Source: Coptis chinensis (lineage: Eukaryota > Streptophyta > Magnoliopsida > Ranunculales > Ranunculaceae). From it: a DNA stretch of 64,000 nucleotides. Where the stretch lies: NCBI GenBank assembly GCA_015680905.1, contig CM027378.1, forward strand, positions 89,681,501 to 89,745,500, written 5' to 3'. A program made the translations under genes and the position numbers. Positions 1-63,250 of the stretch are shown piece after piece. A model generated the notes under the pieces. It was given only the letters and a program-made list of their open reading frames with translations, was not told where the DNA came from and made no database searches. Within the stretch, counting starts at the first letter, position 1; each line of letters begins with the position of its first letter.

Positions 1-104
1 GAGTGAATTTTGTTTAATTTTTTTTTAATTCAACTCTAGTTTTTCAATTTGTGATTTCTATTGTTGAATAATAAATATGGTTGTTATTGTTGAATAATTT
101 GTGG
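1..104. repeat. 104-bp direct repeat, left copy (partner 519-622)
   Basis: This stretch matches 519-622 at an offset of 518 bp with few mismatches, and the match ends at GTGG in both. The partner lies at the start of the first intron of the PMD gene, inside the MULE, while this copy lies outside the MULE's putative target-site duplication. It may be the edge of another copy of the same element family, or a local duplication. Positions 105-275 hold nothing I recognise. Confidence 0.75.
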
Positions 105-275
105 TCATGATATGATTCTTAAAGTTTTCTTGTGCCTAGCTACTTTTAAAGGGCCAATAGCCTTACTGTTTGTCCCAATCTCACCTCGAAGTGAGAATAA
201 CATAATGCATGAGTTCATTATTTAACTAACACTTCACATGCAGTCTCACTAAGCAAAATATTCCACTGCTGATAT

Positions 276-284
276 TTAAGAATT
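276..284. repeat. 9-bp target-site duplication, left (TTAAGAATT)
   Basis: TTAAGAATT here is repeated exactly at 13830-13838, directly outside the two inverted ends of the MULE. Nine bases is the usual target duplication length of Mutator-superfamily elements. Confidence 0.7.
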
Positions 285-325
285 AGTCCTATATTGGGCA
301 CCACACAAATTGGATTGGACAGCCT
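285..325. repeat. MULE terminal inverted repeat, left
   Basis: It pairs with the reverse complement of about 13794-13829. The inner 21 positions match at 17, and the outer part is degenerate with a short gap. Its first bases (AGTCCTAT) resemble the tip of the smaller element at 60977 (AGATTCCTAT). Confidence 0.6.
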
Positions 326-516
326 CCAGCCCAATACACCCCACCTAAATCGCGAAAACCGGAAAAACATTTTCAACCGGTATCAAAAACCAACTCAAAC
401 CAAAACTCGCGTACCAAACCAAAACTCAACCAAAAATCCAAAAACAAACCAAAAATTTGTGTAAGGATAGTTTCGTTGGTGCAAACAAAGATTTCTTCAG
501 TTTTGAATATCAATTG

Positions 517-1835
517 GTGAGTGCATTTTGTTTAATTTTTTTTAATTCAACTCTAGTTTCTCAATTTGTGGTTTCTATTGTTGAATAATAAGTATGGTTG
601 TTATTGTTGAATAATTTGTGGTTTCTATTGTTGATTTTTACCCAATGCAAGTTGTTTGGACTGTTGGTTTCGTATTGTTTGAGAAAACTTGAAATGACCC
701 GATGAGGTCGTTTTGAAGAAGCACCAAACGACCCAGTGAGGTCGTTTGAATGTTTGTTTGTTTGTTTTTTTTTTTTTTTTTTTTTTTAATATTCTAGAAT
801 ATTCTTTGTATTCTTGATTGTGGAAATGGCCCAAACGACCCAGTGAGGTTGTTTGATTATAATGCTGGAGAGGTTGTTATTGGTCTTGGAAAATTTGTTT
901 TGGTGGAATGGGATAGGCTTTTTAGCCATGCGTGTCTTGAGGATGGGTACTCTATTGTATTGAGAGAATAACAAAGTTATTGCCACACCATTTGATTGAC
1001 ATATTGCACCCATCTGAAGGTATTCTTTAGCTCTTATCCATGGGTTATGGTTTTTGGCCGAAGTTAGCTTCTGACGAATTGCCTAGCCTCTTTGTCGTAA
1101 GTGTATATCTGCTTATATCAAAATAAGTTTTACTTACCAAAAGATAAGAAAAATTTGCTTACGATTCACGATTCTTTCACACTATCCATTGGTTATCCTT
1201 AAAACTTCTTTAACCATATATGAGTTTACCTTTTGTCAATGATAGTTGCGCATCTCATAGTTAGTCCTCATTGATTGTGTCTAATATTTTCATTTCCTAT
1301 CTTGTATTGGGTAAACATAGAATCTACAGAGTCTCATTTATGCTTAGTTAAATGTGAAAAGCTAGTCTGGAAGTATTTTGGTTTGATAATTAACCTAGTC
1401 TAGAGCTAAGTTTTCTTTGATTATGTTAGCTTGGTTTATTTATGGTTGTACATCTATCTATTATGTATTAATTGTTGTTTCTATCTATTATATGAAAAAC
1501 AATTTTAGTTCTCATAGTGATTATTGCTTAAATGAGATATTTCCTGTCTTGAGGATTTTATTTGTTTTATAGGTTTCATGTCTTTCATCTTATTATTATT
1601 GACAAATATTTTTTTTCATGATTGATTTTTTACATGTTATTTTTGGCTTACTCCCTTATTGAATTAAGGAGCCAATTAAAAACAGGTTATCATTCAAAGG
1701 TAGTTCTCCTAGTGCTTGATGTACAAACATACATAGTGAGGGATACACCTCAATTCCTCCATCTTGTTGTTCTCATAGTGCATAAATTCATCCATTATTT
1801 ATAGTTACTAATACTTGTTTTATTTTTTTTTGTAG
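517..1835 (+). other. Putative first intron of the PMD gene
   Basis: A transcript leader would end at 516, followed by a GTGAGT donor at 517. A T-rich tract ending in TTTGTAG at 1835 gives the acceptor. The interval is AT-rich and non-coding. It holds the right member of the 104-bp direct repeat and the palindrome pair at 691-856. Confidence 0.4.
691..856. repeat. CAAACGAC inverted repeats, left sub-terminal group
   Basis: Three imperfect palindromes of the form (C)AAACGACCC-n-GAGGTCGTTTG lie at 691-713, 724-749 and 829-856. A poly-T run (about 763-787) separates the second and third. The same core recurs in the other arrays of this element. Confidence 0.7.
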
Positions 1836-3311
1836 CAATGGTTGGGTCCTCGATCAAAGAATGTGAAGAATGTAGCGAAAACTACATTCAAGGGTGTGAA
1901 GAAGTTGTTAGGCGGCGGTTCCTCTTGTGATGACGCAGTTGGAAGAAAAAGATAAAAGGCAGAGGGCTTAACGGCATCAGCGCGTAGAGGGGACCACAAA
2001 GAAAAAGAGGTTCCTGAAGTTCATTCATCGAGTGAAGATAGTATATATAGTGTAGATAGTGATAACAATGTAGGTTTAGATATAAATATGGACAAAGGGA
2101 AGAGTATAGTGGAAGAGGCGAGTGAGGAGAGTGAGGAAGGGGAAGAGGAGGGTGATGAGGGGGAAGAGGAGGAGGAGCAGGATGATGATGTGGAAGAAAA
2201 TGTGGTAGAAGTCGTACCATAAGTGGAAGAAACACCTCTGGTATTGGATTTTGTGAGAAAATCCAATGATGATTTGGAGTTTAAAAGAGGTGAGTATGGG
2301 GGTGGCCCGTATGAGTCAGAGTTGATAACCATGTGGTGCATGTCGCTCGCGATGTTTGGGAGAGAAAAGTAATATTTTGATTTTCTGTAGTACTTTGATT
2401 TTCTTTTACAAAATCTTTTGTTTCTGCTCATATATATCTAATGCGTGTTTGGTTGTTTCAGGAGAATCGCGGAGCGTTGAAGTGTGTTTCGCACTTAGCG
2501 AAGTTCTGCTAATGGGATTTCATGAATGAATTTAGAAGGTCTCCGAGATTTGCCCACGAGCTAAGAAAGACTGGGTTGTATAATCTCGTGTTAAGTTATC
2601 ACGAGCATATGGATTCACCATTGGTTTATGCGTTTATGGAAAGATGGCATCCGGAGACCAACACCTTCCATATGCCATTTGGGGAGATGACTGTGACTTT
2701 GGACGATGTTGTGCAAATTTGTGGAGTCACAATTAGAGGAAGAGCGATGCAAAGGGACAATGAGTTGAACTTACAACAGTCGATAAATCTCCTACACCGT
2801 GCTCTGGGTTTCCCCATTGCTTTGATTAAGGCAGAGATGGAAGCTAACAAGTTCACTTCAAAAGTAAGGCTAGAATTTCTTCAAAAGCATTTTGCTAACA
2901 AGGTTCATGATAACCCCATATGTGATGATAACCCCATTGAAGGTAGGAAGGAGAAGGCCTCGAAGTTCGCAGGAAGTCCAACGGGATGTGCTGTTTTTTC
3001 TTCGTCAGCTTTTATCCTATTTTTCTTTGGATGTGCTTTTGTTTTATCGACAAGTCCGGGAGATTATTTTTTTAATGAGTGTCTCTATGTTATCCGAGGC
3101 GTTGTTAAAATTTAGTGAGATAGGAGAGTGGTGCATGGGGTGCAACAGTTTTGGCATTTTTGTATAGAGGTCTTGGGGCCTCTATGCCACATGTCGCTGT
3201 TAAAATTTAGTGAAACCGGCTATATGACTCTTCTACGTAAAACTTTAGTATTTTAGAGATTATTTTTTTTTAATGTTAATTTTATTACTCTCAATCAATA
3301 TGTTAACTATT

Positions 3312-3355
<44 letters not shown>

Positions 3356-4260
3356 CGGGATCTATGAGCACTTCCCCGTATTTAGACCAATCCCAAACAT
3401 GGACTATAGCTTGTCTCTCAAAGCCATAGACACCACAATAAGTCGCTTTCTACACTATGACGATACAACGCATGCATTGCAGTATTATCGAGCGATACTT
3501 GATGATATGAATTGTTTCAATGTAAGTATTTAAGTTTGTTTATATTATTATTTTTTAGTAATTGATCATTAGAGTTGTTAATGACATTTTGATTTTGTTT
3601 AAGGTTGATTGGCATCCCTACAATAATGTCAGAGCTACAAGCCCGATCGATGACATTGTATTTTTTTTAAGGATTGTGATGTTTTTTTAACATTTTCGAG
3701 CTTTACGCTGTCACAAGGGTTGTGCATCAGTTGGGTCACATGCAGCTTATACCCGTAGATCCTCCAACACCAAATTGGAGGACAAGAACTATAGCAGGAC
3801 TCGGGTATGAGGTGAAATGGACCAATATTGGGCCAACTTATTGGGAGTTATGGTAGAATCACGTAATCCAACCCTGCAATCGATGACCTATCTCGTCTTA
3901 TCCATGAGAGTGTCATCCAAACTACATGACTTGGTATGAGAGGAATTCTCACATTTGATTGGTGAACCCTGAGCGTCTTCCTATTCATTTCTTCCTGGAG
4001 ACACTTCCTAACTGTTCACCGATTGTGAGTATTGTGATTTTTAATTGAGTTTCTCTAATTGTGATTTTTTGCATTCGATTAGTAACTTATCTTGATTTCC
4101 TTTTTTTCGACAGAACAACGTCATCAATGAAACTAGTCGCAAGCTAGAGAGAGGTCTGCAATTGGCTGGAAATAATATTCCAGAGGAAGCAATATTTTCC
4201 TTCGAACAGGCGTACAACTTGACTAAGTGCAAGTACAGTGGTGGGAGTTATAATGAATGA
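1836..4260 (+). pseudogene. Plant mobile domain (PMD, MAIN-like) gene of the MULE, degenerate
   Basis: Known: PMD proteins (Arabidopsis MAIN/MAIL type) occur as host genes and inside plant transposons. Seen: an acidic Glu/Asp-rich exon (1836-2368) ends in a GGPYESEL motif followed by HVVHVARDVWERK, as at a PMD start. After an intron (2369-2461), a second exon opens with ENRGALKC and runs into ERWHPETNTFHMPFGE and MTVTLDDVVQICG, the hallmark PMD segments. Later exons give YEHFPVFRPIPN (about 3363), VDWHPYNN (from 3604) and FELYAVTRVVHQLGHMQLIP (about 3697). The last exon (4114-4260) ends in FEQAYNLTKCKYSGGSYNE. Decay: in-frame stops in the acidic exon and after AKFC, plus frameshifts near 2330, in the middle exons and near 3680. 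A (TA)n tract at about 3316-3353 lies just before one exon. A homologous last exon lies at 61930-62064. Start codon not determined. Confidence 0.75.
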
Positions 4261-4494
4261 ATTTGTAATTTGTAAGGAATATATGGATGGATGTTTGATT
4301 TTGAATGATGTTTGATTTTGGAATTAATGATGTTTGGAATTTGTTGTTATTGGATTTTGAATGAATGATGGATGTTTGTGTTTGTTGTTAAGTGGAATTT
4401 GTTGTTATTTGATGTTAAGTGGAATTTGATGTTTGTGTGGTTGTATGGATATAAAAGTGTTGTAAAAACAAAATAAAATTCTAAATTTTGTTTG

Positions 4495-4830
4495 TCCAAA
4501 CGACCCAACCACATCGTTTAGTATAAAGGCCAAACGACCTAACCACATCGTTTGGTATAAAGATCAAACGACCACTTCAGATCGTTTGGCTAAAAAAACA
4601 AACAACTTTTCTCAAATGACCAGCTTAGACCGTTTGGCTCAAAGCTCAAACGATCCAGCCACATCGTTTGGTATAAAGGTCAAACGACCAGCTCAGATCG
4701 CTTGGCTAAAAAAACAGACAACTTTTTTCAAACGACCAGCTCAGACTGTTTGGCTTAAAGATAAAATGACCAACCCACATCATTTGGTTCAAAGGTAAAA
4801 CGACTTGACCATGTCGTTTGGGGTAAAATC
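4495..4830. repeat. Array of about nine CAAACGACC / CGTTTGG inverted repeats
   Basis: About nine consecutive imperfect palindromes, each near 26 bp, have left arm CAAACGACC and right arm ATCGTTTGG. They are spaced every 30-45 bp, with AT-rich linkers such as TATAAAG and CTAAAAAAACA. They lie between the convergent 3' ends of the PMD gene and the transposase-OTU gene. Arms degenerate to CAAATGACC or AAAATGACC toward the right. Any open frame through the array only translates the repeat. Confidence 0.85.
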
Positions 4831-5227
4831 AAGTAAAATCAAATCAAATTACACTTATTCCAAATTACATCAAAATATCATATTGACAATATACGAACAT
4901 TATTTCCAAATCACTCGATTGCCGTCCGAATCAACTTAGTCGATCACTCTGTTTCCAAATCAAATCAAATAAAAGCCTTAACATTATTTCCAAATAACAT
5001 AAAAATCAAATAAAATTACAATTGTTCCAAATTACACCAAAATAACATGTCAAAATGAATTTACAAATTACATCAAAATATCATATCAACAACATACGAA
5101 CAACATAGTTGATAAGATGTACTGTTGGGTCTTCAACAGGCTCGTCTTCCCATATTAGATTGGAAATGTTCAATGCCACAAATTGCAATTGCCTTGTTGT
5201 GAATGTCAAATTCTAACTTCCAGCAAT
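4831..5227. other. AT-rich spacer between array and OTU 3' end
   Basis: Short fragments such as AAATCAAAT, ATTTCCAAAT and TTACATCAAAATATCATAT are repeated here. I see no gene. The segment is absent from the second copy, whose homology starts at 5228. Confidence 0.5.
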
Positions 5228-5245
5228 ATCATATCGAGCTCTAAG

Positions 5246-5701
5246 TTATTGGCTCATTACTAGAGGAACCAGACAATCTTCAACAAGTTCAACATTGGCA
5301 AAATGATTTCCACCAACATGTGTGTTACCGAATACTTTTTTCACTCTCTCAGGATTTGCTTGAGTTCTCAGTGGCATAATAAAAAAGCACTGACGAGCTC
5401 CTAAATGCAGGAGGACAACATTAAATCTTGAAACAAATAGGTATCCAACAAAGGGCATGCTCATCCACTTATTTAAAGGTGCGTAACCTTCTTCATGTAG
5501 GATTATTTTCATCACATAAACAACCTCATTTTGAGTGTACAAAGTACAATAAAGGGGGAAGTGGTTAATAAGCCCTTGGTACAAGTCTTTTCTTATCTGT
5601 GGCAAGTCTTCTTGACTTCTTCCTAATGTAATGCACAAAGCTCTATAACCGCAGTTGCCATCGCCAACAGGGTCATCAACTCTAACAATGTATTTGTGCA
5701 T
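5246..5701 (-). CDS. OTU-type cysteine protease domain of the MULE, copy 1
   Basis: An open stretch of about 150 residues has the OTU signature: GDGNCGYRAL around residues 13-22 with the Asp and nucleophile Cys, and GGNHFANVEL near residue 130 with the catalytic His. Known: OTU domains are deubiquitinating cysteine proteases, and plant MULE transposases are often fused to or accompanied by OTU or Ulp1 proteases. The frame opens upstream toward the transposase linker, so this is probably the 3' part of a fusion rather than a free gene. It is the best preserved part of the element: both copies keep the catalytic residues, and copy 2 has changes just before the GNCGYRA motif. Confidence 0.8.
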   Translation of the reverse strand: MHKYIVRVDDPVGDGNCGYRALCITLGRSQEDLPQIRKDLYQGLINHFPLYCTLYTQNEVVYVMKIILHEEGYAPLNKWMSMPFVGYLFVSRFNVVLLHLGARQCFFIMPLRTQANPERVKKVFGNTHVGGNHFANVELVEDCLVPLVMSQ

Positions 5702-8082
5702 TTTTCAGGAATATCTAACCCGTAATCGTTAGGACCACTCGTATTTCCAAAGTCTAACCCATCTTTCACATTTTGTGGTGTGGCTGTTTTAGGAGAAGCC
5801 TTATTTCTTGGTGTGGTTGTTTTTTGAGAAAACTTCTTTCTTAGTGTGATGTGGGTGTTTTGGGTTTGTATTTTTGGAGAAGGTTTCTTTCTTGGTGTGG
5901 TGTGGATGTTTTGGGTGGGCGTACTGTTTGGTTGTGATGATATCCACTCCTCATGGTCACGTTGAGAATATTTAAAATGAGATGAATCTCGCTTTGAAGA
6001 GTTCTCATCTCAAGTTGGAAGCTTTCTCCTGCAGCTACTTTTCAGTCGACCTTTGGTTTTTGCTTCCTCACGAGGCGGTACTAGCCATGTACTTTATGGT
6101 ACGGCAATCTCCATAAACTTCCTAATCATAACCCTCTGCTCTTCTTCAGAAACAATTGCAAACCTTTTCATGAACAAGTCGATCGAAGGTGTAACATCGG
6201 GACCAACACCCACTGACACATTGGGAGAAGCAAACAATATTTTCCAAAAGGGGTCGATAGCAGTCAAAGGAATGGACCACTCTTACTCTTCAAACTCAAT
6301 TAATTCATGAACACATGACAATCCATGGCTCGTGCACAAATAACACCAACACCTGATCTCTCCATTTTAACACGCTTTACGTAGGTATCTATTTCTTCAT
6401 ATAGTAAGTCCAAACACTTGCGTGAGACAAGACCTCTGAGTTCATGAAACAAAAGAATCTGGTGGTGGTGATGAGTTACAATCATACTCCTCTCGAAGGT
6501 AGCTCTAATCTCAGACATCTGGATCTCTAAAATCGGGTGGATTAAGCTAAACATACTCAAAAAATCATGACAGTTTGCATTTTCTAATACACACTTCACC
6601 TGAGCATGAGACCCTTCAACTCTATTGGTCGTTGTACTCCCAAAGTGAATGTGTTGGTTAGTCCAACAACATATGAATCGATCCCTGTGAGAAAACCAAG
6701 TCTCTCGCAAATAACTAACACAATTGGAGTACTCAATCCTGTAATATTTTTCCAAAGCATCTCATCTATGCTGGAAAATAATCTCTGTATTCGATTTGAC
6801 TACAGTGTTCCATGAGAACTGGGCCTTGTCTACACGTTCTGTGGTTGGAAAAATATCGTAACATTTTGAAAGGACGCACGTAGCGATATGCCATCTACAT
6901 AGATGTTTGTGTGCGTTAGGAAAATCTTTGTCAGCGGCACTCATCAGGGCCAAGTTCCTGTCAGACACGATCACGGATGGACTTATGTTACCAAGCAAGC
7001 CACTAAACTGATGTAGGGCCCACTCATAGTCGACTATTGTTTCAGACTAAAGCAGCACCTGACACACGGTGAAAGACTTCCACGTTGAACTCACCCTAAC
7101 ACATTGTACGAAAAGCCACCGATACCTGTTAGTTTTGTAGGTATCGTCTAACATGAAAATTGTTGGAAAAGTCCGAGCCAACTTAACACCTTATGGATGG
7201 GCCTATAACAACCCCGTTATCTCCCTCGTATTTTCATCCTCTCAACTCCTCAAAATAATGTTCTTTTGCTAACAACTCACGCGATCTCAGTAATTGTGTG
7301 AGACCTTATATCCAAATCTCACCTTCGCCGCGCTTACAGTGTAGACTTGGGATATACTATATATGTTTTCATGATACCTATTCTTGATGGAATCCAGAAT
7401 TTGTTTAGGCTTTATTCCACACTTACTCATCTATGACAAGTACTCGAACTCTAGAATGGTCAGACGAGTAGCAAATGCATGTCCTTCAAGGGTCTTCACC
7501 AATATATGGTTGTGAATATCATTTCTAACTTTTATTTTCCAACTATCGACAATGCCGCGTTGGAAAACATCTTTTAATTTAAATGGACATCTCAATTTCT
7601 TGGTTCCCGCCCTTCTCTTATTAGCCCTCCCTTCGTCTTCCTTCTTATGTGACCGATACACACCCGAGCACTCGCAAGCCAAATTCAATCTTGCTACTCG
7701 GTTTCCCTTAGCATACTCCGACTTTTCAATAACCACAACCACATTAACTTGTTTTTCTCTAGCGGTTGCCCAACCAATTGCCTCGCTACGTGTATAAAAG
7801 ACCTAAACACATAAAAAATAACAACTATTATTAATACATTAATAAAATTACATTTAGAAAAAAAAAAATGAAATCAATGCCTACTCCATCATACCTCTTC
7901 TTTATTATATCACTTAAAATCGATTGACAATCCACGTTATTCGAGTTTGCAGAGGATCGGTTCTCGGATAGCGACAAAGGATTCTACATATAGAATAAAA
8001 CAAGAGTCTAAAACAATTTGTGTAATGAGGGATTTCAAAATCACAAAAAAAAATGAACTTCTCACTAAATTTAGTCCAAACT

Positions 8083-8290
8083 ACCCAGTCATGTAGTTCC
8101 ATAAAGGGTCCAAACGACCCAACTATGTAGTTCCATAGTGGGTCCAAACGACCCATCCATGTAGTTCCAACCTAGCCATATATGTAGTTCCATAGAGGGT
8201 CCAAACGACCCAGCCATGTAGTTCCATAGTGTCCCCAAACGACCCAGCCATGTAGTTTTGTAGTGTCCCCAAACGACCCAGGTTGTTTGG
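8083..8290. repeat. Tandem array with CAAACGACCCA core, copy 1
   Basis: Five to six units of about 36-39 bp contain GGTCCAAACGACCCA and CATGTAGTTCCATAG. Copy 2 is at 41721-41938. The minus strand is partly open through it, so it may have lain in an intron or coding linker of the transposase gene. Confidence 0.8.
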
Positions 8291-8479
8291 GCTTGGGTTT
8301 TGAATTCATTCCATCAATCAAGTGATTTGCATTCATTCTAATCAATGCTCTCTTGTAGATTCATTCATTCAATCAATCAAGTGTTTTGTATTCATTCTAA
8401 TCAAGTGTTACCTCATTATTTAGGTTTACTTGTCTTAGCTTTGTCGTTGACGATTTCTCGGCATCTCATTTGCTCGACT

Positions 8480-8484
8480 AGTCG
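8480..8484. repeat. 5-bp target duplication AGTCG (left)
   Basis: AGTCG here is repeated at 12258-12262, on either side of the insertion 8485-12257. The uninterrupted site in copy 2 reads CTAGTCGCATC (about 42126-42136). Confidence 0.65.
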
Positions 8485-11400
8485 TGTCACACCCCGAATT
8501 TCGACAGAATTCGGAAAAACATTATTTGTCCCCGACTCTTCGATCTCCGAGGTGTGACGCACTCTCCACTTCCAAAAACCCATAAACAGTTTAAAATATG
8601 CGGATAATTAAAAACCAATAAAAATTTCCATTATACAAAAGTCTTCTTCATTACAAAAATTCCCAATTAAGGTTAGGTTACAAATCTCTTTTCAATAACT
8701 CTTTAATTAAAATATACAAATGAGAATACAAAAACATTGTCTAGATTGAAAAAGCTATATCACCTCGAGGAAAAACAAAACGTGTCCGGAGAAGTAACGC
8801 TTAATGCAAACCACAAGCGTGCACCACTCTTCTTCAACACTAAACCTGGCTAAAACTTATCAACTATGTTCATTGAATGAACACACCCGGATAAACAAAC
8901 ATGCAAATCGGTTGACATTATAAAATGCTTTGGTGTGAGTAGCTCTAAAAACAACATATACTTATACAAATATATACATACTCCATACGGTAGTTAGTTC
9001 CTCCACCGAAAAACTTTAACTTTCAAATCCACTAATACAACATCTTTAAGATAATAATCTAGGCAGTAGTTCCTCCAATCGAGGCCTTTAACTTCCCACT
9101 AACCACAAAACAAACTATAATGCATCATAAATAAGGCATTTAGTTCCTCCACGAGGCTTTTAGGTTATAACTAAACTACTAACCGACCAAACATATACAA
9201 TCATCTATCTAGAGATATATTATTTACTAACATATTACCATAATTATATTAGTTTAGACTTTCTTTGTGTGTCCCTAAAATCACGTCGTATCTATGTCTT
9301 TACCTAGTTTCCGCTACCACAATCGCAAACCCAACGCAACATGTACATCCACATGCCTCCCTTTACATAATGAGCCACTCAGTGCGCGTAACCACCACCG
9401 GGAAATGGATGCCGCGACACCGTAAATCCTCACACGAAGCCAAATCTATGTAAGACCGCCACTATTCGCATAAAATATTATGCATCATCGTTCTATTTTC
9501 ATGAACGGAATAATCAAGCCACTTATTCGGCTACGCCAGAGGGAGGGTTTACCGAAGGCCATTCGGATTAACTCAAACGCCGGGAAGGGCCAATCACATG
9601 AGTTGTTGTAGTCGGGTTCTGTGGATTTTCGTTATGTAATTTATTCGGTGTCATAAATGCGTTAATGACTCATAAACATTCCACTATATCACGCGCGCGG
9701 TCAATTACCTTATTGCACTAAGCCATAATATTTAGAAACATCTCAATTATATCTCATAACCAAATTTCATTCTTTCACGTACAATATATTATTGCACTAC
9801 ACCACACTCCCCGGTGGGCAAATATTCATCAATACTATCTTACCTCATAGTAGCATCTCACATATAAAATAATGGAGTGTATATACATTTCTCCAAGATA
9901 TTGTCTTAATATAAATATCCCAACATATGATATCATGTCATAATGCTTCAACGTGATCGCGATACATTTTTATTATAACGATTAGGAATATAATATCTCC
10001 TAACATCTCAATATCGCCACGGTGTCAAAATACACAACATCAATGTCAAATCTTTCTTAGATAATGACAACCAAATATATATACTAGCTTCCACAAGATT
10101 TTATTACTATATGTGTCCATATAATATACACATAAAACGTAGCCAATTAAGGCGGTCAAAGTCCACAATCAAAGTCCAATATATATATACTTTACACCTA
10201 CTCACGCCAAATCTAAATTAGATAATGACTAACCAAGTTATACCATATCGACAATATTTTATTACTATATTTGTCCATATAAACAAATATGTGAAAAAGC
10301 TGAAAAGTCAACATTCACAAATAATCGGTCAAAAGTCAAACGTCATTAAATGTCAAAGTTAACGGTCGACGGTCAAAGTCAAAGTCAACACATCATGGTC
10401 AAAGTCAACGCATCATGGTCAAAATCAAAGTCAACCCATCATGGTCAAAGTCAACACATCATGGTCAAAGTCAAAGTCAACCGATCATGGTCAAAGTCAA
10501 CACATCATGGTCAAAGTCAAAGTCAACCCATCATGGTCAAAGTAAACACATCATGGTCAACGTCAAAATCAACACGTCATTGTCAAAATCAAACTCAACA
10601 TGTCATGGTCAAAGTCAAAGTCAACCCATCATGGTCAAAGTCAACATATCATGGTCAAAGTCAAAATCAACCCATCATGGTCAAAGTCAATTCATCATTG
10701 CCAAGGTCAAACTGTCGTTTCCGTGTTCGACAGGTCCAGGGTCATAGCCATGGTTCATGGCTAAGGTCAAAGGTGCATGGCTCATGGGCTCATGACCAAG
10801 GTAATGGTTCGGACCTAACTGCCTAAAACCTTAAACCTTAACCCGAAGTCTAAACACATAAAGACCAGAAAGATCTATTTTAAGTCCAATGGATTTGGTC
10901 CAAGCATATTAGAAATCGCCCAAAACAGGTTAAGGATCGCCCAAAAGGAAAACTAATTAAACCGGTCCAACACACAAATGGTTCGACCCATCAATCTAAC
11001 CGAATCGGGTCCACAAATTAAAACAAAACCGGCCCAAATAGCTAATAGAATTTGGCCCAAACAACTAAAACAAACCGGCCCAAAAAACTTAAACATTTCG
11101 CCTGCTACAAATGAAAATAGATCGCCCAAAAACTGAAACCGACCCAGCCCAGCCCAAGCCGATCCACGCTTCTTCTTCCTCACCCATTCTCTCCCTCCAC
11201 CACCACCAAAATCGACCACCCCAAATCGGCCACCACCCCTCACTTCATCAAACCGATTTTTACCCAAATCCAAAACCAAACAACATTAATTAAAGCAAAA
11301 CCCCAACTCATACAATCCAAACCTTACCAAACTAGATCTAAAAGTTTTATCACCGCCATTAATGGCTTCCCCAAGCTCCCCGCCCCTCACTTTCGGCACA

Positions 11401-12257
11401 GCCCTCACACACTACACCACCCCATTACAACCAATCGCCCATCAACCAACGAAATCAACCAACTAACGGTTCAACCCATTTTTACGAGTTGTTTGGGCGA
11501 TAATTAACGCCATTTGGGAGCTTCGACCGCACCATTCCAACCTCAAACACACCGATTTCAACCAACAAATACCCCAACACTTCAACCCCATCATCCATAA
11601 TAAAAAAAAAAGAAAACAATAATAGCTTGTATAAATAAAGCATCGACGATTTTAAACCGAAATGATTTTACTTGGGCCTCCATCAACAAATTTTGTCCAA
11701 GCTTCCACTAGCTTCATGCCGACCTCCTGAGTTCGAAAGCACCCAACAGTTCAACGAGCTTTTCCATTTATAAGAAAAATAACAACACGAAAAACAGAAC
11801 TAAACCAATGAAATCTAACAGAATAAAACTTTGACAAGAAAGGATTCATAATGTGGCATTTCGAAGTTTCGGGGAAAAGAAAATCTAACTACACACAATA
11901 TCCGGTTTATATAGACAAGAATTGGAAATTCTAAACGGATAAAAAATCATAGTTCTAGTAGTGGTGAGAGTTAACTCTACTCACTTGTATTAAAACCCGA
12001 CGAATCCCTCGTCGTCCGAATCGTCATAGGCCCACCTCTCCAAAGAAACCGAACCTCTCTCTTCCCATTTTTAATATATTATTTTTCTCTCAACCCTATT
12101 TTCTAGAAAAATGTGTTTATATACTTGGGTCCCAAACCCAAGCCCAACACGCACTCGGCCCAAAACCAGGCCCACGTGATCCCCGATCCAATCCGGCGAA
12201 TTTTGAAAATAAATAATTTAATTAATTAATAAATAGAAAATTTGATTTAAAAATCTA
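8485..12257. mobile_element. 3.77-kb LTR-like insertion, probably a solo LTR, copy 1 only
   Basis: It starts TGTCACACCCCGAATTTCG, a start common to long plant LTRs, and ends ...AAAATCTA. It is flanked by AGTCG on both sides and is absent at the matching place in copy 2. I find no gag or pol. The interior has a GTGTGAC near 8555 that can pair with the start, a GTCAA-rich minisatellite (10330-10720), and near the end an AT-rich region with (AATT)n. The end is not the canonical CA, and copy 1 has 11 extra bases right of the duplication, so the right boundary is slightly uncertain. Alternatives: a large retrotransposon derivative or other non-coding insertion. Confidence 0.6.
10330..10720. repeat. 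Minisatellite of GGTCAAAGTCAAC and CATCATGG blocks
   Basis: About fifteen irregular repeats join GGTCAAAGTCAA to CNCATCAT. Two overlapping open frames here (10350-10826 and 10415-10747) translate only this repeat (QSQHIMVKVN-like) and are not genes. Confidence 0.85.
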
Positions 12258-12262
12258 AGTCG
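12258..12262. repeat. 5-bp target duplication AGTCG (right)
   Basis: Partner of 8480-8484. Confidence 0.6.
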
Positions 12263-12585
12263 CAATAAATAAGCATCTTCTATTTCTTCAACTTCTTCAC
12301 CTTCACCTTCAACATTTTGTGCCACTTCTTTACTTTCAATATTTCTTCTATTTTCTCCTTCTCTAATTTGTTGTTGCACCTCAAACATTACCTCAAATGC
12401 TTCTTCTTCATCTTCGTGTTCCATTTAGAATTTTGATTGGGTATTCTATGTAGAGAAACTTTAGTATTTTATGTAAAGAGTAAGGATTTTGATAAAAAAA
12501 AAGTAAGGAGTAAATGAGAAACGTAAGTATTATATGTAGAGATATTTGAAATTTTAATATATTTCGAATAATTGAGTGAAATATG

Positions 12586-13090
12586 TTTGTAAACTCTAAA
12601 CCCTAAACCCCCAAACTAGTTTATTATTCACACTTGAAAAAAAAAATGGAAAATAACAAGTTTAGATATAAAACAAATTATTATTTTAGATTTGGATAAT
12701 TGAGTGAAATATGTTTGAAATTAAATGTTTTTTATGTCGATACGAAATTTGTAAACCCTAAATCCTAAACCTTAAACCCCAAACCCCAAACTAGTTTATG
12801 AATCACAATTTGAAAAAGAAAATGGAAAATAACAAGTTTAGAGATAAAACAAATTATTATTTCGAATAATTAAGTGAAATATATTGGTACGAAATTTGTA
12901 AACCATAAATCCCGAACCCTAAACCTTAAACCCCAAACCCCAAACCGTGTATGATTCACAATTTGAAAATAAAAATAAAAATAACAAGTTTAGATATAAA
13001 ACAAATTATTGTTTTGAATAATTAAGTGAAATATGTTGGTATGAAATTTGTAAACTCTAAACCCTAAACCCCAAACCCCAAACTAGTTTA
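12586..13090. repeat. Telomere-like (CCCTAAA) tandem repeat upstream of the transposase, copy 1
   Basis: Four units of about 147-162 bp start at 12586, 12748, 12895 and 13047. Each has TTTGTAAAC followed by CCTAAACCCTAAACCCC-like blocks, then CTAGTTTATGATTCACAATT, an A-rich stretch and AACAAGTTTAGATATAAAACAAATTATT. The blocks contain AAACCCTAA, identical to the plant telo-box promoter motif. They lie 160-670 bp upstream of the transposase start at 12424 (-). Copy 2 is at 42451-42960. Confidence 0.85.
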
Positions 13091-13500
13091 TGATTCACAA
13101 TTGAAAAAAAAAATAATAACAAGTTTAGATATAAAAGAAATTATTATTTTAGATTTTGGCATGTTTGATTACATGTTTTAACTTTGTTATATAGATACTA
13201 TGTCATAACAGATAAAGAGTGTTGAGTGCATGTAATTGTGTTGGTGCAACTAATTGTGTTGTTCCTAACCCAATTTTTTAAATCGTATCTCAATTTTGCT
13301 AATTCAATTGGGATGTGTTGATAATTGATTATTACTATTTCAATTTTGCAGATCATTGTTTAAATAAATTATTGTACAATTATGATCGATTAATGATTTT
13401 GTATTATAAGAAAAGTGTTCGGTGTTTATGTATAAGAAAAGTGTAATTAGTGTTTATGTAATCAATTTTTATTAGTTAATCGGACTAATTAATTATTTTA

Positions 13501-13700
13501 GTCCAAACGACTCACACAAGTTACCCCATAGTAGCCCCAAACGACCGAGTCATACCGCTTGCATGTGATACTAAACGATATAATGGTATCGTTATAGTGT
13601 ATACGCAAACAACATTGAGGTATCGTTTGATTGTATACCCAAACGACATGACACTATCGTTTGAGTGTATACTCAAAAGACATGATGAGGTCGTTATGGT
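13501..13700. repeat. CAAACGAC inverted repeats, right sub-terminal group, copy 1
   Basis: It contains GTCCAAACGACTC, CCCAAACGACCGAG, CTAAACGATATAATGGTATCGTT, CAAACAACATTGAGGTATCGTT and CAAACGACATGACACTATCGTT. These are imperfect palindromes of about 22-26 bp spaced by TGTATAC. They end about 130 bp from the right tip of the MULE, mirroring the left group at 691-856. Copy 2 is at 43371-43570. Confidence 0.8.
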
Positions 13701-13829
13701 GAGACCGGTTGAATTAGTTGTTAGGCCCGGACTTTGATGGCAAATTTGTATAATATGGCAAATTTGTAATTTTTTTTTTTTTTTTTTTTTGGGTTGCCCA
13801 GTCCAATTTGAGTACCCAATTAAACTACC

Positions 13830-13838
13830 TTAAGAATT
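13830..13838. repeat. 9-bp target-site duplication, right (TTAAGAATT)
   Basis: Partner of 276-284. It lies about 525 bp upstream of the FtsH start codon. The same sequence is kept in copy 2 at 43694-43702. Confidence 0.7.
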
Positions 13839-14363
13839 TGAAGATCTTAAGACACTAATGCTGTCCATTTGGGTGTTATGGATCCGTTTTTTTTCGTTAG
13901 TGAGGCCTGTCATGGATTGACTCTTTTGTTAGTTGTTACCACTTACCACAACAGTAGCCCAATAAAGCTCATTTCTTACTGCAACCACATATATCGAAGG
14001 TCACCCAATCCAAGCCCAACGACACAAGACACGAAGTAAAGTCCCGAAATGTGGCTAAACGTAAACCATGTAACCACTGAAAGCAAGATGAGTGTTGGAA
14101 TATTTGATATGCCGATAAATTAGCCATTGAGGATAGGACACGTACACGAACTGCAAACCACATCCACTCCCTCTAAATTCATTAATTTATTTTTCCCTCC
14201 TCACTTTTGTTTACCATTTTTCATTCAAGGTACGTTAGTCATTCTTTTTCCTATTTTCTAATCCATATTATTCAGTTGTTAGTTATTTTGATTTCCTATT
14301 CGTTGTTTGAATTGATGAATTATTAAAACTAGTTGTTAATTTTCTTGTGTTTTTAGAGGATAG
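13839..14363 (+). promoter_or_regulatory. FtsH upstream region and 5' leader, copy 1
   Basis: This is the host side of the MULE insertion. A likely leader intron runs from the donor in CAAG|GTACGT (14230) to TTTTTAG (14356), just before GGATAGATGG. No other gene is seen. Confidence 0.45.
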
Positions 14364-33700: not shown

Positions 33701-35821
33701 ATCATCATTGTCCGCACATCCGCGGACTTCGCTTGATTTTGGCTAAACGGACAACGAATTTTGCAAGTGTTTCATCTTTCTCGTTGTTTTGTGTTTAGCA
33801 AGATATTGACATCTTTGGGCCGAGTCCAATTATGTTGAAATCGATCCGCGGAACTGATCCGCTAACTCTGGAAAGATTCGATAGATCTAGCCGAACTTCC
33901 AGATAGCCATCGCAAGAAAGCTTCCCCTTTAGGGTTGGGGGGAAAAAGTTTGCATAAGAGAGCGCCATCCTTACGCCAAAGAACTAGCCTGCTTTTGAAC
34001 TCCATAACATGGTTGTTTGATCGCCTTCGTTTCATCGCACTTAGGCAATGCGCCGCTTTGAAAACCTTCCCGATGTTCTCGCATTTTGTATACGCCAGAA
34101 AAACGCCCAACGATGTCTTCATTTACCGCTAAGTCTTTCCAATGTTTTTCTTTTAGATCGGTATTATTCATTGCCTTTTAACGATGTCTTTAATCCGCTT
34201 TCAAGATATGTTATTCCTTCATTTTGTTTGGCTAACGGACGACTTTGTGGTTGAACTTCTTGACTTTGTGTCATATCGTCTTCCGGTTGTTGCCCATATC
34301 CGAAACCTGGGGTGCTCCGGACTTTGCGAGACCTATGGCGGAAGTTTGAAATGTCTCCGATTGCACCGGAGAGTAATCTATATGATGAGTGTTATCTCTA
34401 TGTCGTTCTTCCGGTTGTCTTCTACACGATTCCTTCGTTCAAGTCGAAGTCTTAGGTCGCGATTCAGATCTTTGCCCGAGGTCATAGCTTTCAATGCCCC
34501 AAGCGTGAGTTCTAATGTGGGTGGTATCCTCCGTCCGCCGTGTAATGTCGGTGCTGCTATCCGGCTTACGAGGTTTGTATTACCCCCGGTAGTATGGTCG
34601 GTGGCTTGTTCGGTGTGAATCGATTCACTTGGGGAGATGCGACGACTAGTATGTGACTGTGATGTTGTCTATCATCACCGCTATTAGGACCGTTGACATC
34701 GGGAGTCCTCAACGCCTTTTAATAAATTGGTTGAAATATGTCGTGGCTTTGGATTGATTTGGGACGATTTTTGGGGACATCATCGATTGGTTGAAATCTT
34801 TCGCTATTGCTTTGCAATCGGTGGAATACTCGCTGTTTTCTCCCGATCTTGGGATTCTTGATGGAATAGATGAAGCAAATTATCATTGTTGTCTATCATA
34901 CTTGCTTCCCTTCATCTATTTGTTTCGCAAGTCCGCATTATGCTCCTTTTCCTTCTAAGTTTGTTCTGTGAGCTTTCGAGTCATTTCTTCATCACCGCGG
35001 TATGTCGTTATCATTTTGGATCTGCAACCATATTTTCATCTCAGATCCGGATCCGGATCTCGGATGCGCATCCTGGCGAATTAGTATCATTAGAGGAGAA
35101 GATATCGGAGCCCTGTGACCTTGGAAATTTAGATCCGCTTACCGCCTTTGGCACCGAAGCAACAAAGGTGGAGCTTGTTGGTTTGATGCAACTTGATCGA
35201 CACGAACTTGACATTTTGTTGATTGTTTCCCCTCGATGGTTGTGCTTTTGCCTCGCTTGTTTGCTAGAGATCTTGTTATAGTAGCCATTAACAAAGATCG
35301 AGAGAGAGATCGTGGAAGAGAACGCGTTAACAAGAACCATGAGACGGGCGCCCAATTATGTTTGGGTAAGAATTCACCCGCACACACCATATGAATCTGC
35401 AAGGGGAGATGTTGTATAAAGAATGAAGGCGTGCCTTAATGGCTGCCTATTATCCGGAATATGTATCCGTAATCAAGTCTCTAAAAACGTAGTTCTTTGT
35501 TAAGTGGAGAGTCCTATTTATAGAGAAAATAAGAGTCCCCGACAAAGACAAGGACTCTTTACTAGATAGGACGGGTTAACTGAACATGTGACCGCTCAAG
35601 TGTGGGATGGGCCGTCCGATGTCTACTTCTTCATGCGAGCCGCCCAAGTAGCTAACTAAAGCGTGAGCCGTCCGGTGGCTAAGTGGACATATGAGCCATC
35701 CAAGTGGCTAAGTGGACATGTGAGCCGTCCAGGTAGCCGAGGATCGGTCACTTAGACTTACTATAAAGACTAAGTCCCTAATGAGTTCGTTAGCCAGGGT
35801 ACGAATGTGGACGTACGTACA
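30748..35821 (-). mobile_element. Truncated Ty3/gypsy LTR retrotransposon
   Basis: Reading leftward: 5' LTR (35821-35359), a GGGCGCCC primer-binding-like site, a gag start near 35280, gag with FPPNPKGEAFLRWL (about 33980-33910), an aspartic protease motif VMIDTGSYASVIF (about 32908-32868), reverse transcriptase entry RLLSVNFIKPDFIPRWLSNV (about 32140-32080), connection segment ALAAINRFISKYSDKCRPFF (about 31500-31445), and an RNase H edge (about 31057-30806). The element stops at the duplication junction, so integrase and the 3' LTR are missing. The frame is broken by many stops and indels. Order and motifs fit Ty3/gypsy; the lineage was not determined. Confidence 0.82.
35359..35821 (-). repeat. 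5' LTR of the gypsy element
   Basis: On - it begins TGTACGTACGTCC and ends ACCCAAACA, two bases before the primer-binding-like region. It holds short internal repeats around GTGAGCCGTCC and GGCTAAGTGGACAT. Its first base abuts the start of duplication copy 2 exactly. Confidence 0.65.
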
Positions 35822-37655
35822 ATCATATCGAGCTCTAAGTTATTGGCTCATTACTAGAGGAACCAGACAATCTTCAACAAGTTCAACATTGGCAAAATGA
35901 TTTCCACCAACATGTGTGTTACCCAATACTTTTTTCACTCTCTCAGGATTTGCTTGAGTTCTCAGTGGCATAATAAGAAAGCACTGACGAGCTCCTAAAT
36001 GCAGGAGGACAATATTAAATCTTGAAACAAATAGGTATCCAACAAAGGGCATGCTCATCCACTTATTTAAAGGTGCGTAACCTTCTTCATGTAGGATTAT
36101 TTTCATCACATAAACAACCTCATTTTGAGTGTACAAAGTACAATAAAGGGGGAGGTGGTTAATAAGCCCTTGGTACAAGTCCTTTCTTATCTGTGGCAAG
36201 TCTTCTTGACTTCTTCCTAATGTAATGCACAAAGCTCTATAACCGCAGTTTTGCCATCGCATGCGGGGGTCATCGACTCTAACAATGTATTTGTGCATTT
36301 TTCAGGAATATCTAACCCGTAATCGTTGGGACCCCTCGTCTTTCCAAAGTCTAACCCATCTTTCACATTTTGTGGTGTGGCTGTTTTAGGAGAAGCCTTA
36401 TTTCTTGGTGTGGTTGTTTTTTTAGAAAACTTCTTTCTTAGTGTGATGTGGGTGTTTTGGGTTTGTATTTTTGGAGAAGGTTTCTTTCTTGGTGTGGTGT
36501 GGATGTTTTGGGTGGGCGTAGTGTTTGGTTGTGATGATATCCACTCCTCATGGTCACGTTGAGAATATTTAAAATGAGATGAATCTCGCTTTGAAGAGTT
36601 CTCATCTCAAGTTGGAAGCTTTCTCCTGCAGCTACTTTTCAGTCGACCTTTGGTTTTTGCTTCCTCACGAGGCGGTACTAGCCATGTACTTTATGGTACG
36701 GCAATCTCCATAAACTTCCTAATCATAACCGTCGCTTCTTCGTAAACAATTGCAAACCTTTTCATGAACAAGTCGATCGAAGGTGTAACATCGGGACCAA
36801 CACCCACCGACACATTGGGAGAAGCAAACAATATTTTCCAAAGGGGGGTCGGCGGTAGTACCAAAGGAATGGACCACTCTTACTCTTCAAACTCAATTAA
36901 TTCATGAACACATGACAATCCATGGCTCGCTCGTAACAAATAACACCAACACCGATCTCTCCATCTTTAACACGCTTTTACGAGGTATCTATTTCTTCAT
37001 ATAGTAAGTCCAAACACTTGCGTGAGACAAGACCTCTCGAAGTTCATGAAACAAAAGAATCTCGGTGGTGGTGAAGTTACAATCATACTCCTCTCTCGAG
37101 GTAGCTCTAATCTCGGACACATCGGATCTCTAAAATCGGGTGGATTAAGCTAAACATACTCAAAAAAATCATGGCAGTTTGCATTTTCTAGTACACACTT
37201 CACCGAAAGCATGAGACCCTTCAACTCTATTGGTCGTTGTACTCCCCCAAAGTGAATGTGTTGGTTAGTCCAACAACATATGAATCGATCCCCCGTGAGA
37301 AAACCAAGTCTCTCGCGAAATAACTAACACAATCGAGTACTCAATCCTCGTAATATTTTTCCAAAGCATCTCATCTATGCTGGAAAATAATCTCTGTATT
37401 CGATTTGACTACAGTGTTCCATGAGAACTGGGCCTTGTCTACACGTTCTGTGGTTGGAAAAATATCGTAACATTTGAAAGGACGCACGTAGCGATATGCC
37501 ATCTACATAGATGTTTGTGTGCATTAGGAAAATCTTTGTCAGCGGCACTCATCAGGGCCAAGTTCCTGTCAGACACGATCACGGATGGACTTATGTTACC
37601 AAGCAAGCCACTAAACTGATGTAGGGCCCACTCATAGTCGACTATTGTTTCAGAC

Positions 37656-37658
37656 TAA
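37656..37658. repeat. Harbinger target duplication TAA (left)
   Basis: TAA here and at 40689-40691 flanks the element. The empty site is intact in copy 1 at 7048-7050 (CAGACTAAAGCA). Confidence 0.9.
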
Positions 37659-40600
37659 GGGGCCATTTGTTTTTGCCTCTTATAAGACATTGATGTCTTA
37701 TAACCTCTTATAAGAGGGCATGATGATTTTGGCATTTTTTGTTTTGTTTTTGCCTCTTATAAGAGGCATTCTACTAGAAATGTCTTATAAGAGGCATGAT
37801 TTCTGTAAGTACCAAAATTGGATCTACTACAATTTTGTAAGTCTTGTAAGCTGGAAAAAGACACAAACGCCCCAAACACACTACCCTTTGCCCTCGTTCT
37901 CTCTTCTGCCTTCTCTAAAAACTCATTTCTTCCCAACCCAAACCGCCACACCCATTGCCTCCATTTCTATTGTTTTTCGCTCCCGCGTATGCGTGGCTGT
38001 CTTCGCCATTTGCCTCCATTATCGGTGAGATATTTCAAGCATCATAATTTTTTAGTATTATATTTAGTAGTTCAGCACACTATATTATAAGAAGCAACAA
38101 GCTGATGGTTCTCGCTATTTTTTTCTGGAAAAATGTTAGAATTTCCCTATTTATTTGATTGATCTGATACTTACCGAACCCCTCAACAGATTTTCTTACT
38201 ATTTTAAGAGATAGATTGATTGAATATTTTAGTATTTTCTGTTTTTGTCCTTGATTTGCTTTCTTATAACTCAGATACAAGTAAGGGGCTTTTCATTCCA
38301 GAACAACAAGATTTTAAGCGGGGCCTTTTGTGATAGCAAACAAACTAGGTCGATTCGCCACGTGTATGTAATAACAAAGTCCGGATAAGAATATCTTCTC
38401 GTACTATAATTAAAATTTACCCGAGTGTGGAAAACAGAATCAAGACATATCGCACACAATAGTAGTGTATATACTGACTTCTATTTTCACTTGCTTGTGT
38501 AGATTACACACTAATGGAAAGTCTAATGGAAGGTGTCAGGAATAATAAATCCTTAGTGGAGATGAATGTAAAATTGAAATCAGTATCCTTCACTTGTAGC
38601 TTTACTAATGGAGAATCAGAGAGTTGAACACTTTGGACTTTTTCTTCCATTGTATTTAATGAACCTCCGATCTTAATTATGCTAAAAGGAAACTATTTCC
38701 ATGGTAAATCCCCACCAACTGTTATCCTTTTGGTCCCTTTTAGCTACTGGGATGTCAATCGTATTTTATAGAAATTGGTGTAGTTTGTATGTCACCCATT
38801 TTCTGGAAATGATTAGATTAGTAATTGATGTTAAGGAATTATTAGATTAGAAATTGGTGGAAAAGTATAATGTTAAGGAATTGACTTGTATAGTTTTATG
38901 TGATGGATACATTGAAATGGTTATTCTTTTTATATGTAGGTCTATATGGATTCTTTTAAGTTATCATTGTTGGTGAGTCTTATAGCATTAATAATATTGC
39001 TCAAACGTGCAAGAAGAAATACACTCCCAAGGAGAGTCCGTCAAAAGATGTGCATTTCCAAACGTAGTGGAGAAGATTTAGTTAGGGAGACTTTGAATGG
39101 TCCATCAAAACAAATTTTCCAATCATTTAGGATGGAAAAAGAATCTTTTCAAGCATTGTGTAGTCATTTTCGAGAGAGAGGGTACTTGGCCAATAGTAAA
39201 CACCTACTTTTGGAAGAGAAGATGATGATGTTCTTGTTAACACTTAGTCATAACACTCGTATGACACATGTAAGTTGGTTATTCCAACATTCTGGAGAAA
39301 CAATTCACAAGTACTTTCATGAAGTGTTGAAAGCTATGATTTTGTTTTCCAAAGAGATGATTGTACCACCATCTTGGGATGCCCCAGTTGGAGAACTTAG
39401 AAGTTATAAGGAACTTAGAGAAGGAGCATTCAAAGGGGCTGTTGGAGCATTAGATGGCACTCTCATTCATGCGCTTATTCCTCCTAGCAAACAAAGACCC
39501 TTACAGGAGGAAGAGGTGGAAAAGATTGTTGGCAAAATGTGTTGGCAATTTGTGACTTTGACATGAAATTCATATATCTTTGGGTTGGATGGGAGGGACT
39601 GCCCATGATGCTAGGGTGTTAACTACTTCAAAGTCGCGGAATCCACTTTGGGTTTCCATTACCTCCTCGAGGTAAATGTGTAGTCTTTGTTTTATTGTAA
39701 TGTTATCTACAAAGTTATTACTTGTATATGTGTACTAAATTGTCATCTATTTCTATTGTATAGATACGTATTATCTATGTGACGCGGCTTACACGCATAC
39801 CAGGGGCTTTATGGCTCCATATCGTGGTGTACGATATTGGCTTGTCGACTACGCGTCACGCCCCGGGAGTCTTTTAGGACAAAGGAGGAGAAGTTTAACC
39901 ATAGCCATTCAAAACTAAGGAATGTGATTGAGAGGAGCTTTGGAGTTTTGAAAGCTAGGTTCCCTATTTTGAGCAAGATGTCAGGGTATAAGTTTCCAAT
40001 TCAGAGGAACATAGTCATTGCTTGTATGGCTCTTCATAACTTCCTTCGTAGAGTTGCCCTCAACGATGTGTTATTCCAAGCATATGGTAATGAGGAACTT
40101 CTTGTGAATAATCATATTCCTGTAGACCCAGAAACAAATGATGGTGTTGAGCAAGTTTTCAGGCCACAAGATCAAGCTTATATGGTTAATTTACGATCTC
40201 AAGTTGCAGATATCCTTATGGCTAGGCCTAATAATCCCGAGTGATGTTTTTGTTAGTTGTGTTTTATGATGTTTAACTTCTTGTAAACTCTTGTTTGATT
40301 TGTTATATTTATGACTTGTAAACTTTATTTTTCTGACATATCATTGATATGAGAATGTTTAGACTTTTTTGCTTGGCGTTTGAGTTTATTATATTGTGAC
40401 ATGTAAACAGGTTGATTAACATGAGATATATAGGCGCGAAAGAAGATCATTTTGTTGAATAATGATTGGAAGTACAAGTTATGTAATGGTATGTAAAACA
40501 GGGTTATATTTGTCAAATAACCATCTATAAGATGTTGTGTGTTTGTTTTTTCTTTTTTTATAAGTCCTTATAAGAGGAACTTAAAATGAAAAACAAACCA

Positions 40601-40688
40601 GTTTATAAGACCCACTTATAAGACCCTCTTATAAGACCATGTCTTATAAGACCCTCTTATAACTTAAACCAAAAAAACAAATAGGCCC
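37659..40688 (+). mobile_element. PIF/Harbinger DNA transposon, 3,030 bp
   Basis: Ends GGGGCCATTTGTTTTT (left) and, on -, GGGCCTATTTGTTTTTTT (right) form the inverted repeat. The target duplication is TAA, as PIF/Harbinger requires (TWA). Copy 1 provides the empty site. Both sub-terminal regions are packed with the palindrome TCTTATAAGA or its half CTTATAAG: about five in the first 140 bp and about six in the last 130 bp. One transposase gene is present; the Myb-like second protein typical of many members is not seen. Confidence 0.93.
38946..40244 (+). pseudogene. PIF/Harbinger (HARBI1-like) transposase, frameshifted
   Basis: DDE nuclease that cuts and reinserts the element. Open from the ATG at 38946 through a hydrophobic start, FQALCSHFRERGYL and GAFKGAVGALDGT with the first catalytic Asp (about 39450). 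A shift near 39533 puts ICDFDMKFIYLWVGWEGTAHDARVL (second Asp near 39610) in another frame. An intron of about 90 bp (after PPRG near 39672, to about 39764) precedes YYLCDAAY and GFMAPYRGVRY. A further shift near 39850 precedes NVIERSFGVLKARFPIL, with the Glu near 39930, and ALHNFLR. The stop is at 40242-40244. All three DDE residues are visible, but at least two frame breaks separate them. Confidence 0.9.
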
Positions 40689-40691
40689 TAA
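40689..40691. repeat. Harbinger target duplication TAA (right)
   Basis: Partner of 37656-37658. Confidence 0.9.
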
Positions 40692-41720: not shown

Positions 41721-41938
41721 GTCAAAACTACCCAGTCATGTAGTTCCATAAAGGGTCCAAACGACCCAACTATGTAGTTCCATAGTGGGTCCAAACGACC
41801 CATCCATGTAGTTCCAACCCAGCCATATATGTAGTTCCATAGAGGGTCCAAACGATCCAGCCATGTAGTTCCATAGTGTCCCCAAACGACCCAGCCATGT
41901 AGTTTTGTAGTGTCCCCAAACGACCCAGGTTGTTTGGG
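41721..41938. repeat. Tandem array with CAAACGACCCA core, copy 2
   Basis: Counterpart of 8083-8290, with few substitutions. Confidence 0.8.
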
Positions 41939-43570: not shown

Positions 43571-43693
43571 GAGACCGGTTGAATTAGTTGTTAGGCCCGG
43601 ACTTTGATGGCAAATTTGTATAATATGGCAAATTTGTAATTTTTTTTTTTTTTTGGGTTGCCCAGTCCAATTTGAGTACCCAATTAAACTACC

Positions 43694-63000: not shown

Positions 63001-63003
63001 TTG

Positions 63004-63213: not shown

Positions 63214-63250
63214 TAGTGTTTAGTGTTAATGTTAGGATATAGTTTTCTTG

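Follow-up and report, generated by a model that had tools for sequence, protein, structure and literature searches.

A decayed two-gene Mutator-like element of Coptis chinensis with arrays of a spaced 24-bp dyad

A PMD gene and a transposase gene face each other in one element

We analysed a stretch of 64,000 bp from Coptis chinensis (C2:89681501-89745500, hereafter the window), taken from an assembly of 936 Mb in 116 contigs. It contains a transposable element, E1, at positions 284-13829. E1 carries two genes in convergent orientation: one on the forward strand with a PMD domain, and one on the reverse strand that codes for the transposase of a Mutator-like element (MULE). A first-pass annotation of the window had proposed that these two genes belong to one Mutator-type element, and the results below strongly support this. 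E1 is almost certainly a decayed, dead copy of a high-copy family with this two-gene architecture.

The PMD gene (1838-4260, + strand) is broken. It has an acidic part (about 1838-2330), a PMD core (2513-2989), and later exons at about 3356-3524, 3604-4022 and 4114-4260, whose limits we judged by eye. The E1 sequence matches the profile PF10536 with an E-value of 6e-18 and a score of 65.6 bits, above the Pfam cut-off of 34.9. In the relative L067, the match takes in two pieces of the 347-position profile, 10-185 at 126.5 bits and 238-346 at 27.5 bits; the second piece by itself scores below the cut-off. Over the exon at 3604-4022 no frame of E1 stays open for 80 codons, whereas L067 has 160 open codons there.

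The transposase gene (- strand) starts at 12424 with an acidic N-terminal coding part (MEHEDEEE..., 12273-12424). It continues with a zinc-finger-like N-terminal region (7431-7802), a MULE catalytic region (6300-7200) that contains an in-frame stop and frameshifts, and an OTU-like domain at the C-terminal end (5246-5704). The order of the zinc-finger-like region, the MULE domain and the OTU-like domain suggests that they are parts of one gene. Its reading frame is interrupted both in E1 and in a partial second copy of E1 in the window. E1 matches the transposase profile PF10551 with an E-value of 5.8e-9 (36.7 bits; cut-off 27.6), and the match of the relative L066 (1e-14) covers positions 1-97 of 99. 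Over the zinc-finger-like region, scores for the AFT profile are just above the cut-off of 21.6 bits in E1 (23.0) and the second copy (22.8) and below it in L066 (18.2), and all FAR1 scores (16.2-21.1 bits) are below the cut-off of 28.1.

OTU proteases have catalytic D-x-N-C and H motifs. The C-terminal domain, which had been annotated as an OTU protease, does contain DGNC and GNH motifs; the N, the C and the NHF are invariant in all six copies that we aligned, and DGNC is intact in four of them. Membership of the OTU family is unconfirmed, and the name found no support in searches of Pfam and PDB or by fold. The only Pfam OTU-type profile to match was Otubain (C65), which fell below its cut-off (0.2 and 0.041) over the DGNC stretch. 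A phmmer search of PDB returned only 5jze_A (titled RNA-dependent RNA polymerase; E = 1.1), again over the DGNC stretch, and a second PDB search with phmmer returned no match. We take 5jze_A to be a viral OTU domain; no PDB match supports the OTU label. AlphaFold models of the domain, made from the single sequence and from an alignment of six rows, were poor (predicted local distance difference test, pLDDT, of 36 and 43). A Foldseek search had no OTU entry among the best 50 of 460 rows, with a model too poor to judge from.

Limits of E1 and its target-site duplication

The termini of E1 are degenerate inverted repeats of about 30 bp. The left end (284-334, + strand) has the common form GAGTCCTGTATTGGGCGCC, with T at base 284 in E1, and the right end (13770-13829, + strand) has the common form GATGAGTGCCCAATTAAACTACC. 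The first-pass annotation placed the element at 285-13829, between the two units of an exact 9-bp direct repeat. The repeat TTAAGAATT is indeed present at both 276-284 and 13830-13838, and the right limit stands, but the left limit lies one base further out. Leaving aside E1 and its tandem duplicate, we compared 28 left-end loci; the alignment of 23 reaches to 8 bases or fewer from the E1 terminus, and 17 of the 23 have a G immediately ahead of the AGTCC position. At this base (284) E1 has T and its upstream tandem duplicate has G. Because G precedes AGTCC in most copies and in the upstream duplicate, we place E1 at 284-13829, most likely with an 8-bp target-site duplication, TTAAGAAT, at 276-283 and 13830-13837. 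The ninth matching base probably arose by a later G to T change at 284, and we reject a 9-bp duplication for E1 since 8 bp fits both the other copies and the upstream tandem copy. By manual count, 18 of the 30 right-end loci, a set that includes E1 and the second copy, terminate in AAACTACC.

The upstream duplicate is part of a 520-bp tandem duplication (91.7%; L001:5570-6001 with window 1-622) that covers host flank, the target duplication and 338 bases from the start of E1. We considered whether positions 1-105 of the window, which resemble 519-622, are another element, and rejected this as they are part of the same old duplication of flank and left end.

The TTAAGAATT repeat alone is weak evidence for an insertion, because the window has 7 occurrences of it and the genome about 21,000. 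Among 7,601 identical 9-mer pairs spaced 2-20 kb apart, scored for how similar their adjacent 45 bases are in inverted orientation, only 3 outscore the E1 pair and 3 tie with it, and all six fall in a Harbinger insert or in E1's own arrays, both described below. This scoring, together with the duplications at the ends of other copies, rules out a chance repeat.

The length of 9.8 kb originally given for E1, at odds with its span of 13.5 kb, is explained by a nested 3.8-kb insert (8485-12272) resembling a long terminal repeat (LTR) element, which starts with TGTCACACCCC and is flanked by a 5-bp duplication, AGTCG. Without this insert E1 is 9,758 bp long, and its relative L063 is 9,742 bp. The insert is missing from the second copy (at 42131) and from L063, L064 and L065; in these three, the bases equivalent to 8484 and 12273 are directly adjacent. 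A 46-bp minisatellite lies inside the insert (10352-10711), and an AAACCC-rich minisatellite lies in the right part of E1 (12590-13150).

The two-gene layout recurs across the genome

Genome similarity searches gave 365 candidates for the left end, 794 for the right end, 1,417 for the OTU-like domain and 2,717 for the PMD, and we scored 40, 40, 150 and 150 of these, respectively. From the scored candidates there are at least 91 matches to the left 616 bp and at least 82 to the right 330 bp. Nine end pairs, including that of E1, were examined for flanking duplications of 8-11 bp. In seven of them the target duplication is exact, at 8 bp in six and 9 bp in one; the eighth (C7:91.05M) has the 8-bp duplication TTAAAAAA, and no left end was found for the ninth. 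A further candidate pair, at C1:56.97M, lies outside these nine. With exact duplications of 8-9 bp in eight of nine pairs, the degenerate inverted ends proposed at the outset are those of a real element. We did not find the expected empty site in the assembly, where the right flank occurs at only two places, both adjoining the element's right end.

The pairing of the two genes also recurs. Within the scored lists, 63 of the 150 OTU-like matches (E1's own included) have a PMD match no more than 12 kb away. The pair is convergent in 62 of the 63 cases, and the spacing between the two matches is 2.2-3.4 kb in 55. Random placement produced a mean of 1.0 pairs and at most 4 in 500 trials; in this control contig 9 was set to 90 Mb (it is in fact 85.2 Mb long) and small contigs to 100 kb. 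Three long relatives (L063, L064 and L065) are collinear with E1, counting L064, which has lost its transposase core, and L065, which is altered at its extreme left end.

Copies in which the ends fail to enclose both genes in full, which the first-pass annotation would have held against a two-gene element, do exist, but those that we saw look like deletion derivatives: in L022 the left end is fused to the 5' part of the transposase gene, in L028 the front of the PMD gene is missing, and in L064 the transposase core is missing.

One segment of E1 (857-1798) is specific to a subfamily, being whole only in L004 and L005 (94-95%) and partial in L006 among the loci that we fetched. The corresponding slot in L063 contains an mTERF-like fragment (L063:8552-9202, - strand; E = 4.6e-5, 22.9 bits against a Pfam cut-off of 23.1), which looks like a gene capture.

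A 24-bp dyad with fixed spacing is arrayed in the noncoding DNA

The noncoding parts of E1 contain arrays of a 24-bp dyad, CAAACG-N12-CGTTTG. One array is subterminal on the left (706-857, with dyads at 725 and 832), one lies between the 3' ends of the two genes (4496-4822), and one is subterminal on the right (13504-13664). A further array, upstream of the zinc-finger exon (8074-8281), consists mostly of single CAAACGACC arms with a period of 34 bp. We counted arrays in E1, L063, L064, L065, the partial second copy and E2, a diverged relative near the right edge of the window, and the dyad is arrayed in the noncoding DNA of all five elements examined for it. E2, whose ends have diverged, keeps the same dyad together with remnants of both genes.

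All four E1-type copies have dyads close to each terminus and also in the stretch that separates the two gene 3' ends. The largest array is the one between the genes in three of the four (8 of 13, 5 of 10 and 6 of 10 sites), whereas in L064 it is the array at the right end (6 of 12). The arrays between the genes lie roughly 3-5 kb from either terminus, which is too far for a role in end recognition alone.

The spacing of the arms is exact. The five elements have 49 sites with a gap of 12 (allowing 11 or 12 matches in the 12 arm bases), compared to 0-5 sites for any other gap from 2 to 30. Shuffled sequences gave an expectation of 0.01 sites against 13 in the noncoding DNA of E1, and 0.005 against 4 in E2, and there are no dyads in the 40,087 bp of the window outside the elements. 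Across the genome, whatever the sequence context, the pattern CAAACGAC-N10-CGTTTG has 3,908 exact matches (1,907 + 2,001, both strands summed, so that perfect palindromes count twice), whereas the reversed pattern has none. With one more base in the gap there are only 90 matches (42 + 48; reversed control 1 + 4). Since matches with the exact gap vastly exceed both the one-base-longer and the reversed patterns, the spacing itself is conserved, in line with recognition of the site by a dimer. The dyad had no matches in IMG/VR contigs.

The four E1-type copies have 66 sites with two or fewer mismatches. Of the 66 mismatches that these sites contain, 30 fall on the four CG positions, and 26 of these 30 are C to T or G to A. 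This decay may reflect methylation of the sites in silenced copies, but it is only a hint because the last position alone carries 15 mismatches.

Comparison with known elements

The E1 family has the hallmarks of MULEs: a PF10551 domain, a target duplication in the range of 8-11 bp, and terminal inverted repeats. A PMD reading frame antisense to a MULE transposase is already published. Table 1 of Dupeyron et al. (2019; PMC6446971) gives this arrangement for most MUDR elements, often for MUDRAVI2, sometimes for MDR, and for MULE-Solanaceae_1. The E1 family resembles these groups in having its PMD gene on the opposite strand to the transposase. The term OTU does not occur in the main text of that paper, and its relevant parts do not describe dyad arrays. 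Jittery-type MULEs (group 36 in the same table) share with E1 a listed 8-bp duplication. They have a FAR1-type N-terminus, for which the E1 family scores below the Pfam cut-off, and no PMD is listed for group 36. MULE-PMD fusions are described from grasses and Amborella (Ikeda et al. 2017; PMC5418596), but there the PMD is fused to the transposase, whereas the E1 family has it as a gene of its own, convergent with the transposase gene. Muta1 of Aedes (PMC5225508) is a MULE with 8-9 bp duplications and short subterminal repeats, but these repeats are tandem 12-mers inside long terminal inverted repeats, and no second gene is described in the relevant parts of that source.

There is a further parallel in layout with VANDAL elements and their VANC proteins (PMC5735166, PMC10398659). 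Like VANDALs, the E1 family has degenerate inverted ends, an accessory gene, and arrays of short motifs in its noncoding parts. Within the open-access literature that we searched, what is new in the E1 family is the dyad system, with its exact spacing and its scale, and the presence of an OTU-like C-terminus beside a PMD partner.

A possible role for the dyads

Taken together, the evidence is probably best explained by E1 being a dead copy of a two-gene MULE family whose dyads are bound by a protein of the element and help it to escape silencing. The two parts of the proposed function differ in strength. We predict from the sequence, with reasonable confidence, that the dyad is a binding site for an element-encoded protein. 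This protein would bind as a dimer to arms 18 bp apart, centre to centre, and candidates for it are the zinc-finger end of the transposase and the PMD protein. The anti-silencing role is a more tentative suggestion, drawn by analogy. In VANDALs, VANC recognises short motifs that are tandemly arrayed in the noncoding parts, and it removes methylation (PMC5735166, PMC10398659); binding to the dyads could similarly keep noncoding element DNA free of silencing marks, in addition to serving end recognition. MAIN and MAIL1 are host PMD proteins that silence transposons, and an anti-silencing role for MULE-borne PMDs has already been suggested in print, as speculation (PMC5418596). The PMD protein of the E1 family may compete with host silencing of the MAIN/MAIL1 type. 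It is also conceivable, though doubtful, that the family has an anti-silencing system of its own, distinct from VANC, in which the transposase or a MAIN/MAIL1-related PMD protein reads the CpG-containing dyad and the OTU-like domain strips ubiquitin from a host silencing factor.

The dyad is of interest as a defined site of 24 bp that matches at thousands of positions in a single genome, with an exact spacing and with arrays at fixed places. It offers a handle on the published suggestion that transposon-borne PMDs act against host silencing, and it could show whether self-protection of the VANC kind has more than one form.

Several points weigh against this explanation. VANC motifs are short single sites of 8-9 bases (YAGTATTAY; AGTTGTCC), whereas those of the E1 family are spaced dyads of 24 bp. 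PMC6446971 lists a PMD and/or a domain of unknown function (DUF) in half of the members of the VANDAL group, so PMD and VANC accessory genes may not be independent. No profile or fold search that we made supports the OTU label, and in L066 the MULE and OTU-like parts are in different frames. Both E1 genes are broken, which makes present-day activity of this copy unlikely, and none of the elements that we read end to end is fully intact. Lastly, 87 of the 150 OTU-like matches have no scored PMD match nearby; this is not proof of absence, because only 150 of the 2,717 PMD candidates were scored.

The strongest alternative is that the dyads are subterminal repeats bound by the transposase and nothing else, the arrays between the genes and upstream being spill-over from repeat expansion in which the PMD protein has no part. 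We regard this as about as likely as the anti-silencing role. Short subterminal tandem repeats are known from MULEs such as Muta1 and its relatives (PMC5225508), dyads lie near both ends of all four E1-type copies, and L064 has its largest array at the right end. The mid-element position of the largest array in the other three copies, 3-5 kb from the ends, is harder to reconcile with it, as are the additional arms that E1 has in an array upstream of its zinc-finger exon.

A second alternative is that the dyads act as inverted repeats whose transcripts form hairpins and give rise to small RNAs with which the host silences the family. Tandem repeats can be sources of small interfering RNAs and targets of RNA-directed DNA methylation (PMC10398659), and PMD genes in tea yield phased small interfering RNAs (phasiRNAs; PMC10673657). 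We think this unlikely, since the short arms and fixed gap look like a protein site and RNA pairing needs no exact gap of 12 bp. Slightly less likely still is that the PMD gene is host cargo, captured passively as in Pack-MULEs and without a role for the element. MULEs do capture pieces of genes, and L063 seems to hold one in its mTERF-like fragment, but that slot varies between copies, whereas the PMD gene is convergent in 62 of 63 pairs and at a spacing of 2.2-3.4 kb in 55, its end is kept in E2, and some of the 150 scored PMD matches have long open frames. Finally, PMDs are also found in host genes and Gypsy elements (PMC5418596), but a chimera of an unrelated MULE with a neighbouring host or retrotransposon PMD gene is contradicted by the shared ends with their target duplications, the three collinear copies elsewhere and the convergent pairs, and we reject it.

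Other features of the window

The second copy comprises the right part of E1 (35822-43693, + strand) and is without the left half. Sequence resembling an LTR end, judged by eye, adjoins the point where the left half is missing (about 35300-35821). Inside the transposase gene of this copy there is a PIF/Harbinger-type insert (about 37659-40687; DDE_Tnp_4, 2.5e-10) with a TAA duplication. The copy is located within a large segmental duplication (5228-30745 and 35822-60607, 96-98.6% identical).

E2 (60975-63475, + strand) is internally deleted and has inverted ends of its own (34 of 36 bases identical), whose alignment with the E1 ends beats all 500 shuffles. It contains a peptide from the last PMD exon (about 61930-62070), dyads (62420-63000) and the acidic start of the transposase (about 63000-63215, - strand). 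Its flanks are poly-T, without a clear target duplication.

The segmental duplication includes an FtsH gene, which begins at 14364 and in our reading has a chloroplast-type N-terminus. By eye, each FtsH copy has one frame break, at a different place (about 15287 and about 44800). These breaks may be sequence errors, and some of the breaks in the E1 genes could likewise be errors. MULEs often insert in front of genes, and the FtsH start codon is located 534 bp beyond the end of E1 (13830-14363).

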